Shown here: piece after piece, positions 1 to 42,882 of the stretch | Numbering within the stretch: position 1 is the first letter of the stretch | How the letters are laid out: each line of letters opens with the position of its first letter | Origin: Desulfuromonas sp. | Lineage (GTDB): Bacteria > Desulfobacterota > Desulfuromonadia > Desulfuromonadales > BM501 | Assembly: GCF_002868845.1 (NCBI RefSeq) | Contig: NZ_PKUB01000034.1 | Span: 1 to 64,000, forward strand | Reading direction: 5' to 3' | Length of the DNA stretch: 64,000 bases | Made by a program: the position numbers and the translations under genes | Notes under the pieces: model-generated | The model's input: only the letters and a program-made list of their open reading frames with translations | Database searches by the model: none | What the model was told of the DNA's origin: nothing

Positions 1-674
1 CCGCCGACGCCGCCCTGGCCGCCCCCTTCGGCCCGGAGAACCTGCGCGGCAAGCGCGCCTGCAAGCGGGCCCTGCAGCGGGAACTGGGCCTGGAGCCCGA
101 CCCGACGGTGCCGATCGTCACCATGGTCACCCGCCTCGACACCCAGAAGGGGCTGGACACCGTCGAAGAGGCCTGGCGGGACCTGGTGAAGCGGAAGCTG
201 CAGTTCGTCCTCCTCGGCACCGGCGAGGAGGCGCACATGAAGCGCTTCGCCCGGATCGAGGGGAGCCGCCCCGGCCAGGTCTCCATCAACCTCTCTTTCG
301 ACGAGGCCCTGGCCCGGCGCATCTACGCCGGCAGCGACCTCTTCCTCATGCCGAGCCGCTACGAGCCCTGCGGCCTCGGGCAGCTCATCGCCCTGCGCTA
401 CGGCACGGTTCCGGTCGTGCGCAGGACCGGGGGATTGGCGGACACGATCACCGACCCGCGGGAGAGCCCGCGCCGGGCCAACGGCTTCAGCTTCGAGGAG
501 CCGAGCGCCGCCGCCCTGATGGAGGCCCTCGACCGGGCCCTCGACCTCTACGAGCGCCGCCGCCCCTGGCTGACCCTGGTGCGGCGCGGCATGTCCCGGG
601 ACTCCTCCTGGGCCCGCTCGGCGGAGCGCTACGTAGAGCTCTACCGCCGGGCGATGGAGATGCGCGATGTCTGA
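1..674 (+). CDS. glgA: Glycogen synthase, C-terminal part (5' end outside window)
   Basis: ADP-glucose-dependent glycogen/starch synthase of the GT5 family, which extends alpha-1,4-glucan chains in the cytoplasm. The frame is open from base 3, so the start lies upstream. What is visible is the C-terminal GT-B nucleotide-binding half: VTRLDTQKGLD, the stretch ending LGTGEE, and the donor-site motif YEPCGLGQLIALRYGT followed by VVRRTGGLADT, all typical of bacterial GlgA. The C-terminal end (SSWARSAERYVELYRRA) also fits. Its stop codon overlaps the ATG of the next small gene, suggesting translational coupling. The family call is secure; the full length cannot be judged. Confidence 0.95.
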   Translation, partial: ADAALAAPFGPENLRGKRACKRALQRELGLEPDPTVPIVTMVTRLDTQKGLDTVEEAWRDLVKRKLQFVLLGTGEEAHMKRFARIEGSRPGQVSINLSFDEALARRIYAGSDLFLMPSRYEPCGLGQLIALRYGTVPVVRRTGGLADTITDPRESPRRANGFSFEEPSAAALMEALDRALDLYERRRPWLTLVRRGMSRDSSWARSAERYVELYRRAMEMRDV

Positions 675-921
675 TGGGGGGGAAAAGGACACGGCCGGGG
701 CCGGCCGGCAGGGAACCATCGGGGAGGAGACAGCCGCGATGGCCGCCGACCTGGACGCCATTCAGCAGGAGGTGGGAAAGCGCATCCGGGACAACCGGCG
801 CTTCCTCGCCCGGTTCATGGACGAGGACTTCATGGACGAGGACTTCATGGACGAGGACTTCGAGGACGAGGACGAACGGGGAGAGGACGTCGAAGGAGAG
901 GGGGATGCGGACGGGGAGTGA
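667..921 (+). CDS. Small acidic protein with tandem MDEDF repeats
   Basis: A predicted 84-aa protein whose ATG lies inside the last codons of glgA, an arrangement that favours co-translation. The first half is unremarkable (a helix-prone DLDAIQQEVGKRIRDNRRF segment). The second half is very acidic and contains three perfect MDEDF units, then a run of Glu/Asp to the end. There is no signal peptide or membrane segment. I do not recognise a family. The overlap with glgA and the Asp/Glu coding pattern favour a real gene, but the repeat could also be drifting sequence. A role in glycogen metabolism is only a guess from position. Confidence 0.55.
   Translation: MSDGGEKDTAGAGRQGTIGEETAAMAADLDAIQQEVGKRIRDNRRFLARFMDEDFMDEDFMDEDFEDEDERGEDVEGEGDADGE
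817..861 (+). repeat. Three perfect 15-bp tandem repeats (MDEDF codons)
   Basis: The unit atggacgaggacttc occurs three times head to tail with no mismatch, then degenerates into gaggacgaggacgaa. The unit is a multiple of three, so gain or loss of copies would keep the frame and only change the length of the acidic tract. Confidence 0.9.
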
Positions 922-4311: not shown

Positions 4312-5166
4312 ATGAGCTCCCTTTTCATCCCCGGACGGCGCCACGCCGCAACCCTTCTCGCGGCCCTGGCCGCAGCGATCCTCGCCGTCCCGACCGCCGC
4401 GGCCGCCGCCATGGAACACCGCTACATCTACTTTCCCGAACGCCAGCTGGTCGCAACCCCGGCCTCCTACGGCCTCATCTACGAAGACGTTTCCTTCGAC
4501 GCCGCAGACGGCGTCACCCTGCACGGCTGGTACCTCCCCGGCGAAGAGGGGAGGCCCCTGGTCCTCTTCTGCCACGGCAACGCCGGCAACATCTCCCACC
4601 GGGTCGAGAACCTCGCCCTCTTTCACCGCCTCGGCCTGCCGGTCTTCATCTTCGACTACCGCGGATACGGCAGAAGCGAGGGCCGGGCGAGCGAGGAGGG
4701 GACCTACGACGACGCCCGCGGGGCCCTCGCCTGGCTGCGGAGCAGGAGCTGGGAGCCGGAGCGGATGGTCTACTTCGGCCGCTCCCTCGGCGCCGGGGTC
4801 GCCGTCCAACTCGCCCTCGAAGAGCCGCCGGCGGCCCTCGTCCTCGAGACCCCCTTCCCTTCCATCTCCGCCATGGGCTGGCACCACAGCCCCCTGCTCT
4901 ACCTCCTGCTCGGCTGGAGCCTCGACGCCCGCTACGACACCCTCGGCAAGATCGGGCAGGTCTACGTGCCGCTCCTGCTGTTCCAGGGGGACCGGGACAC
5001 CATCGTTCCGGAGAAGCTGGCCCGGCGCGTCTTTCGGGCCGCCAACAAGCCGAAGACCTTTCACCTGATCCGCGGGGCGGGGCACAACAACACCTACGAT
5101 GTGGGCGGGGAGGCGTACTGGGAGGTTTGGCGGGGGTTTCTGGATGGCCTGTTCGGGAAGGAATAG
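4312..5166 (+). CDS. Alpha/beta hydrolase (BEM46/ABHD13-like)
   Basis: A predicted serine hydrolase of 284 aa. An N-terminal hydrophobic stretch of about 30 residues ending in an Ala-rich segment looks like a signal peptide or anchor. The fold markers follow in order: oxyanion-hole HGNAGN, DYRGYGRSEG, nucleophile elbow GRSLGAG, acid residue in QGDRDTIVP and catalytic His in GAGHNNT. This pattern matches the BEM46/ABHD13 subgroup, often exported and of unknown substrate. It stands alone on its strand after trkH with a 94-bp gap. Confidence 0.85.
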   Translation: MSSLFIPGRRHAATLLAALAAAILAVPTAAAAAMEHRYIYFPERQLVATPASYGLIYEDVSFDAADGVTLHGWYLPGEEGRPLVLFCHGNAGNISHRVENLALFHRLGLPVFIFDYRGYGRSEGRASEEGTYDDARGALAWLRSRSWEPERMVYFGRSLGAGVAVQLALEEPPAALVLETPFPSISAMGWHHSPLLYLLLGWSLDARYDTLGKIGQVYVPLLLFQGDRDTIVPEKLARRVFRAANKPKTFHLIRGAGHNNTYDVGGEAYWEVWRGFLDGLFGKE

Positions 5167-5261
5167 GCTCCTCAGAAAGTTCCGACGGGACTTGTTTCCC
5201 AGCCATCCCCTGCTACCCTTCATAAAGCCGATTCAACACAACAGACCGAAAGGAGACGATC

Positions 5262-5675
5262 ATGATGCGTAGTATAATGTTCGCGGCGGTGACCCTCGTC
5301 GCGACGGGGATGCTCCTCATGGGCATGGGCAAGGCCCCCGAGGCCGGCGAGGTGCCCCGGATGACGGCGCAGGAGTTGAAGGGGCAGCTCGGCACCCCCG
5401 ACTTGGTGATTCTCGATGTACGGAAGGGGAAGGACTGGGAAGAAAGCGACCGGATGATCAGCGGGGCGCTCCGCGCCGATCCCAAGTCCCCCGGAAAGTG
5501 GACCGCCGACTACCCCAAGGGAAAGACCATCGTCCTCTACTGCGCGTGACCGAACGAAGGGACCAGTGCCAGTGTGGCACGGCAACTGATGAAGATGGGA
5601 TACACCAACGTCTATGCCCTCAAGGGGGGATGGAACGGGTGGCTGGAAGCCGGCTACCCGGTGACGGCGAAGTAG
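5262..5675 (+). CDS. Exported rhodanese-like protein with in-frame TGA, probable selenoprotein
   Basis: A single-domain rhodanese (sulfurtransferase fold) of 137 aa if TGA at 5547-5549 is read as selenocysteine. Visible parts: a hydrophobic N-terminal signal-like segment without a lipobox, LVILDVRKGKDWEESD, the GAL-R-DP segment, then IVLYCA-(TGA)-PNEGTSASVARQLM and the normal C-terminal end YALKGGWNGWLEAGYPV. The frame is unchanged on both sides of the TGA and ends at TAG. The stop falls two residues after the active-loop Cys (Cys94-Ala-U96). From memory, relatives have Cys at this position (YCxCPNE), and selenocysteine forms of rhodanese-related proteins have been described in bacteria. A SECIS-like hairpin follows directly. 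An AAAGGAGA ribosome site precedes the ATG. Alternatives are a pseudogene or a TGC-to-TGA sequencing error. Confidence 0.72.
5563..5582 (+). promoter_or_regulatory. Candidate bacterial SECIS hairpin
   Basis: Within the coding sequence just after the TGA, bases 5566-5570 (gtgcc) pair perfectly with 5576-5580 (ggcac), leaving a five-base loop AGTGT. Two further pairs (cc 5563-5564 with gg 5581-5582) extend the stem around a single bulged A. The loop starts 22 bases after the TGA and has G at its second position. Bacterial SECIS elements are known to be short hairpins with a G in the first two loop bases, about 16-37 nt after UGA, so the geometry fits SelB recognition. Confidence 0.65.
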
Positions 5676-5750
5676 TTTTTTCGGCCCTGAACCAGGGGCC
5701 CGGCCTTGCGAGAGCTCAGCCTCGGCTAGTTTCTCGAGGGCCAAAATTCA

Positions 5751-5783
5751 ACGGGCGGCCGGATCGGCCGCCCGTTGTTATTT
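5751..5783 (+). terminator. Rho-independent terminator after the rhodanese gene
   Basis: A perfect 10-bp inverted repeat, acgggcggcc/ggccgcccgt, with a 5-base loop is followed by TGTTATTT. It lies 76 bp past the TAG at 5675. That it sits after the TAG and not after the TGA suggests the whole reading frame was the transcribed unit. Confidence 0.8.
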
Positions 5784-14590: not shown

Positions 14591-15706
14591 CTAGCCGGCG
14601 AGACGGTCGAGAAACTCGACCACGTAGGGGGTGAACTTGTCCGGTTCGACGAGAAAGGAGTCGTGGCCGTAATCCGAGTCGATGAGGCGGTATTCCACCG
14701 GCTTGCCGAGGCTCTCGAGGACCGCCACCACCTCCTCGGTCTGGTTCGGGGGGTAGAGCCAGTCGGAGGTGAAGGCGAACCACAGGGAGGGGCAGCGCAG
14801 GAGGCCGAGGGCCTCTTCAAGGGAGTCGAAGTTCCAGGCGACATCGTACAGGTCGAGGGACTTTGCCAGGTAGAGGAAGCTGTTGGTGTCGAAGCGGCCG
14901 ACGAAGTTGCCGCCGTTGTACTCAAGGTAGCGCTCCACCTCGTACTGACCGAAGAAGTCGAAGAGTCCGTCGCGGGCCGAAAAGCGCCGCCCGAACTTGA
15001 GGTGCATGGAAGCGTCGGAGAGGAAGGAGATGTGGCCCATGGCCCGGGCCAGGGCGAAGCCGTCGGCGGGCGGGTGCTCCGGCTTGTAGTTCCCCTTTTT
15101 CCACAGCGGGTCGTTAAAGATCGCCTGGCGGGCCACGGCGTTGAGGGCGATGGCCATGGGGGAGGTGCGCCCGGTGCCGGCGATAGGGATGATGGAGCGC
15201 ACCGCATCCGGGTAGAGGATGCCCCACTCAAGAGCCTGCATCGCCCCCATGCTGCCGCCGATGACGGTCACCAGGGAGTCGATGCCGAGACGCTCGAGGA
15301 GCATTTTCTGGGCGCGCACCATGTCGCGCACCATGACCACCGGAAAGGACAGGTTGTAGGGGCGCCCGGTGCGCGGGTTGGTGCTGGCCGGACCGGTGGA
15401 GCCCTTGCAGGAGCCGATGACGTTGGAGCAGATCACGAAGTAGCGCTCGGTGTCGAGCACCTTTCCGGGGCCTATCATGTCGTCCCACCAGCCCGGCTTG
15501 CGGTCTTCCGGCGCGTAGCGGCCGGCCGCGTGGGCGTCGCCGGTCCAGGCGTGGGTGACGAGGATGACGTTTGACCGGTCAGCGTTGAGCGCTCCGTAGG
15601 TCTCGTAGGCAAGCCGGATCGGGCCGAGCAGGCGACCGCTTTCCAACTGCAGTTCGGTGTCGAACTCGGCGTATTCAGTTGTGACGATGCCGACCGATCC
15701 GCTCAA
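14591..15706 (-). CDS. metX: Homoserine O-acetyltransferase MetX
   Basis: Transfers an acetyl (or succinyl) group from CoA to homoserine, the first committed step of methionine synthesis. The 371-aa alpha/beta-hydrolase-fold protein has the nucleophile elbow GGSMGAMQ, the acid residue in TSDWLYP and the His in [10 protein letters not shown], with [15 protein letters not shown] upstream, all typical of MetX. Whether acetyl- or succinyl-CoA is used cannot be safely read from sequence. A SAM-I riboswitch and terminator precede it. metW, which commonly follows metX, is absent: the next gene is convergent. Confidence 0.95.
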
Positions 15707-15829: not shown

Positions 15830-15942
15830 GTCCTCATCTTCCCCCGCTGCCGGGGAAGGAATTAGCACCTGGCGTCCGCGCCGCGCGAACCGGTTGCTGT
15901 GGTTTCACAGGGCCTTATCCCTCCACCACTCTTGATAAAGAC
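15830..15942 (-). ncRNA. SAM-I (S-box) riboswitch aptamer
   Basis: Read on the minus strand, the conserved S-box elements appear in order: P1 arm gtctttatc then AAGAGTGGTGGAGGGA, the CTGTGAAACCACAGCAACC core, the GGTGCTAATTCC segment, and the closing P1 arm gatgaggac. The two P1 arms (15942-15934 and 15838-15830) pair along all nine bases with G-U pairs. Followed by a terminator and metX, it fits known transcriptional control of methionine genes by S-adenosylmethionine. Confidence 0.92.
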
Positions 15943-42491: not shown

Positions 42492-42882
42492 GTGGTCGAA
42501 GAAGGCCAGATGATCGCCGGCCCCTTCGGGGGCGGGAGGAAAGTCCGGGCTCCGCAGAGCAGGATGGTCCTTAACGGGGACCGGGGGCGACCCTAGGGAA
42601 AGTGCCACAGAGAGCAGACCGCCCGCCCAAGCTTCGGCCACGGCGGGTAAGGGTGAAAGGGTGAGGTAAGAGCTCACCAGTTCCGGCGGCGACGCCGGAA
42701 GCTAGGCAAACCCCATCCGGAGCAAGGCCAAATAGGGGAGCGTTCGAGGGCGGCTCGTCCGAGGCTCCCGGGTTAGGCTGCTTGAGGCCGTCGGCAACGG
42801 CGGTCCTAGAGGAATGATCATCGCCCCGTTCCGGGCAACCGGTGCGGGGAACAGGACCCGGCTTACGGCCTTCTTCGGCCAC
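42492..42882 (+). ncRNA. rnpB: RNase P RNA, bacterial type A
   Basis: Catalytic RNA that trims tRNA 5' ends. The P1 stem closes the molecule: 42492-42507 pairs with 42867-42882 over 16 bases with one G-U pair. The conserved core GAGGAAAGTCCGGGCTCC is at 42536-42553, followed by AGGGAAAGTGCCACAGAG, and the 3' core ACAGGACCCGGCTTA near 42851. Between them are GGTAAGGGTGAAAGGGTGAGG and GCAAACCCCATCCGG elements seen in type A molecules. A run of T follows the RNA. Confidence 0.97.

Follow-up and report, generated by a model that had tools for sequence, protein, structure and literature searches.

A predicted selenocysteine-containing rhodanese of the CxU family in Desulfuromonas sp.

The gene at positions 5262-5675 of the forward (+) strand very probably encodes a selenoprotein of a known rhodanese family, NF041203 (CxU), with selenocysteine inserted by SelB at a SECIS element. 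The in-frame TGA at 5547-5549 is, judging from comparison with homologues, almost certainly decoded as selenocysteine, residue 96 of the protein. SelB carrying Sec-tRNA would bind a SECIS hairpin that begins 13 nt past the UGA, and the ribosome would insert selenocysteine 96 to give a protein of 137 residues. The family has already been catalogued and is found widely among sulfur- and metal-reducing bacteria; the gene is a sound but ordinary member and adds a well-supported entry to a widespread selenoprotein family.

The gene lies in a 64,000-nucleotide stretch of DNA, the whole of which was analysed and is called the window here. It starts at an ATG at 5262, with a Shine-Dalgarno sequence (AAGGAG, 5250-5255, read directly) 6 nt 5' of the start codon, and ends at a TAG stop codon (5673-5675); translating the TGA as selenocysteine gives 137 residues and an active loop that reads LYCAUPNE. 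The sequence-only reading had given precisely this frame, and the coordinates are exact. It had also warned that a pipeline calling every TGA a stop would truncate the gene. Table 11 alone does yield an open reading frame of 95 residues, but pipelines equipped with NF041203 should recognise the gene, since the family is already modelled and listed in reviews. A single rhodanese domain (residues 35-129, 5364-5648) runs across both sides of the TGA, matching PF00581 with an E-value of 1.5e-16 and 61.1 bits against a gathering cut-off of 22.2. An intrinsic-terminator-like hairpin, a consensus match only, follows the gene at 5749-5777 (+). Upstream lies an alpha/beta hydrolase gene (4312-5166), and downstream a small open reading frame on the opposite strand, without a Pfam or NCBIfam match; no functional link was found from the gene's neighbours in the window. 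When the window was scanned for further TGA read-through genes with a GC3 filter and a hairpin search, only formal candidates appeared besides the TGA at 5547.

Comparison with homologues carries the decoding argument. A search of 136 genomes of the order, accepting matches at E-values up to 1e-10, returned 67 homologues, 65 of them with a TGA inside the match. In a phylum set of 395 genomes, 84 matches scored above the NF041203 cut-off, and at least one TGA was present in 75. Sequencing error or chance can be rejected on the strength of these two counts. Named genomes supplied 80 loci, drawn from Thermodesulfobacteriota, Nitrospirota, Methylomirabilota, Synergistota, Fibrobacterota and others; the readable motif was CxU at 75, UxU at three and CxC at two. 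Homologues occur in isolates such as Desulfacinum infernum DSM 9756 and Desulfosarcina alkanivorans PL12. Distant homologues from Burkholderia and Cupriavidus have cysteine at the TGA position (YCACPNE, YCACPHE), which bears out the earlier placement of the TGA at the second cysteine of a CxCPNE loop. Serine at position 96 also occurs, rarely, so that the alignment of homologues proposed in the sequence-only reading found TGA or cysteine there with few exceptions.

The putative SECIS hairpin (5563-5582, +) consists of an upper stem of six base pairs (5566-5571 with 5575-5580) closed by the loop GUG (5572-5574), and of lower pairs (5563-5564 with 5581-5582) set off by a bulged A at 5565. A model of bacterial SECIS elements (PMC13188914) allows a loop of 3-9 nt, a stem of 4-16 bp and a spacing of 16-37 nt, with G in the first two loop positions and an MFE of at most -7.5 kcal/mol. 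The hairpin falls within all four constraints of that model, with its GUG loop, its 6-bp upper stem, a UGA-to-loop distance of 22 nt and an MFE of -10.2. Taken singly it is unremarkable: 4.4% of synonymous shuffles reach the same stem length, so that a single sequence proves little; single-sequence folding around the hairpin showed no significant excess of energy (z -0.6, -0.5 and +0.8), and Rfam at gathering thresholds reported no selenocysteine element in the window. The hairpin is convincing only through family comparison. All five core pairs are kept in 120 of 125 distinct TGA homologues, and four of these pairs have varied on both sides; pairing in register holds in 99.2% of cells, against 22-54% once the partner is shifted by 1-3 positions, and the observed count was reached in none of 2000 trials in which the 3' arms were re-dealt among sequences (both figures uncorrected for kinship). 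The wobble bases of a serine and an alanine codon covary in the first 74 sequences (T-A 43, C-G 24, T-G 6, C-A 1; Fisher 7e-13, uncorrected for relatedness, yet over a diverse tree). Position 26, the first base of the loop, is G without exception, and the stem is lost in 10 of 11 homologues without selenocysteine, which retain 1-4 of the five pairs. One Desulfatitalea homologue (L195:169-570) has an intact hairpin despite a TGT cysteine codon at the selenocysteine position; this looks like a recent change from selenocysteine to cysteine, or a sequencing error.

The genome from which the window comes (3.70 Mb, 99.8% complete) holds the machinery for selenocysteine insertion. Matches were found to selA (615 bits), selB (390 bits), selD (356 bits) and tRNA-Sec (75.7 bits, also found by ARAGORN), with selA, selB and selD consecutive on contig C56 and tRNA-Sec about 4 kb away; the rhodanese gene is on a different contig. 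The selD gene (L077:2463-3518, minus strand) has an in-frame TGA of its own (SSGUAAK), and SelD is therefore itself a predicted selenoprotein. Across the order, the selB cut-off is passed by 115 of 136 genomes and several of the others are incomplete, so that co-occurrence with selB is hardly informative. A search for selA, selB, selC and selD had been suggested when the gene was first called a probable selenoprotein; the presence of all four, together with the TGA conservation and the conserved hairpin, upholds that call.

The structure model has a pLDDT of 95-98 over the rhodanese domain and matches rhodanese folds in the PDB with Z up to 17.2. In the model, Cys94 (TGC, 5541-5543) is the first residue past strand 89-93, where the nucleophile of rhodaneses usually sits. 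Alignments conflict as to which of the two loop residues corresponds to the canonical cysteine: it aligns with Cys94 in 2hhg and in the last domain of 6h98, but with residue 96 in an ungapped alignment to 6mxv. With selenocysteine written as cysteine, Tyr93, Cys94, residue 96, Glu99, Thr101 and Ser102 are invariant in an alignment of 38 sequences, and switching between cysteine and selenocysteine is seen among homologues at both loop positions, 94 and 96. Residues 1-28 (5262-5345) form a hydrophobic segment, modelled as a helix over residues 3-19, which is probably a signal peptide or membrane anchor; lipobox-like sequences occur in 20 of 125 relatives. From these two features we infer that the protein is exported or membrane-anchored.

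If the TGA were a true stop, the gene would be a truncated pseudogene or would make a 95-residue product, in keeping with the frame obtained under table 11. We consider this exceedingly improbable: the part of the gene 3' of the TGA is conserved across phyla along with the codon, the SECIS hairpin covaries and the sel machinery is in the genome. For the function of the selenoprotein, we tentatively prefer the extracytoplasmic handling of sulfane sulfur, as persulfide or polysulfide, by Cys94 and Sec96 acting together. Sec96 stands two residues past Cys94 in a lengthened active loop, and the pair would cooperate: one residue would accept a sulfane sulfur donated by polysulfide, thiosulfate or a persulfide, its partner would assist the release, and the outcome would be extracytoplasmic sulfur transfer or reduction. 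The suggestion of the sequence-only reading that such a pair would have a chemistry differing from that of the usual single-cysteine sulfurtransferase is plausible.

The main rival to sulfane sulfur handling is a plain redox role, somewhat less probable in our judgement, in which a Cys94-Sec96 bond would let Sec96 act as a general redox centre, exchanging thiols and disulfides or reducing peroxides, with sulfur transfer secondary. Switching between cysteine and selenocysteine at both positions 94 and 96 resembles a redox pair, PMC9312934 takes most uncharacterised selenoproteins to have redox functions, and a rubrerythrin-like gene lies upstream at a few Desulfuromonadales loci; however, the fold and the active loop are of the rhodanese type, and Cys94 alone is kept in the CxS forms. 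It is also conceivable, though unlikely, that the loop holds two active centres, Sec96 resolving the persulfide that forms on Cys94, which would make the protein an extracytoplasmic persulfide/polysulfide reductase and not a plain sulfurtransferase. If that were true, the site in the recurrent UxU relatives would be its all-selenol counterpart, and the two-centre loop would be a rhodanese chemistry without description in the literature surveyed. A role in selenium handling, in which the protein would bind selenide or selenium derived from selenite as a perselenide so as to deliver or detoxify it, is improbable. It recalls a selenium-substituted rhodanese which, according to a title cited in PMC5877670, was prepared with selenite and glutathione and put forward as a selenium delivery form. 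Against it, the protein probably resides outside the cytoplasm, the gene and the sel genes are on separate contigs, and no homologue linked to selenium use was found.

Some relatives carry UxU in place of CxU (L089, L095, L099, L124-L129, L165, L166 and L186); in these the usual catalytic cysteine is also TGA-encoded and the same SECIS hairpin follows downstream. Parsimony places seven changes to UxU on the tree, at least five of which are forced by well-supported branches. The string UxU was not found in the main text of the 2026 review that lists the CxU form. Together, CxU, UxU, CxC, CxS and the hairpin-bearing cysteine form make a natural series in which the role of selenium in a rhodanese loop is testable by simple residue replacement.

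The neighbourhoods of the relatives show several arrangements. A DUF547 gene lies directly 3' of a UxU rhodanese gene, overlapping it by about 1 nt, at L165, L166 and two further loci, and selenocysteine-rhodanese genes are paired side by side at L189, L190, L198, L202 and L206. At 25 of about 76 loci (L131, L135, L137, L142, L145, L153, L155, L200, L207 and others), a gene on the same strand lies directly upstream, at a median distance of 37 nt. Its product is a many-helix membrane protein with the motif GFVFNExFxYWFPNFGF; the two members tested had no Pfam or NCBIfam match, and a model (pLDDT 86) has the APC-transporter fold, with AdiC and other amino-acid transporters as best matches. There are only two strong matches to this gene in the order, each adjoining a selenocysteine-rhodanese gene. 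The transporter-fold protein was rejected as a functional partner here, its gene being absent from the window's genome.

Elsewhere in the window, a SAM riboswitch (81.7 bits; 15831-15941, minus strand) is located upstream of a minus-strand open reading frame (14591-15706) whose product, named by eye, resembles homoserine O-acetyltransferase, and an RNase P RNA of class A (298.9 bits) occupies 42498-42880 (+). A small open reading frame at 667-921 (+) has a repeated FMDED motif (DEDFMDEDFMDEDFEDEDE) and may represent a genuine acidic protein or just a tandem repeat.

Among known systems, NF041203, the equivalog rhodanese_LYCAU or 'rhodanese-related (seleno)protein', is matched at 171.5 bits against a cut-off of 115 over positions 8-126 of a 126-position profile, and the C-x-U (or C-x-C) loop of its definition is present. 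The CxU form is listed in a 2026 review, which credits a 2005 paper, and appears in PMC9312934 as 'COG0607 form 2, CxU'; given this match and these listings, the gene joins an already known family. It shares with that family the whole-length match, the CxU motif and the single rhodanese domain, and we found no features that set it apart. Selenocysteine-rhodanese forms 1, 2 and 4 of PMC13188914 (UxxS, UxxG) likewise have a rhodanese domain with selenocysteine but differ in its motif. TsoB (NF045694, UxxxxU) gives a weak profile match (31.6 bits against a cut-off of 805) and, unlike the protein described here, is a larger fusion with two selenocysteines. The DedA/rhodanese fusions of Burkholderia (WP_258285231.1) have a YCACPNE loop that aligns with CAUPNE, but carry cysteine at the selenocysteine position and a fused membrane domain. 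No phage homologues were found at 1e-5, and no plasmid matches at the DNA level. The polysulfide-sulfur transferase of Wolinella succinogenes is periplasmic. Its structure (1qxn) shares the single-domain rhodanese fold, as seen both by sequence profile and by Foldseek; the match is remote (32.5 bits, 19% identity) and 1qxn is without known selenocysteine, and by analogy it is a candidate for a protein that works like ours in extracytoplasmic sulfane sulfur handling.
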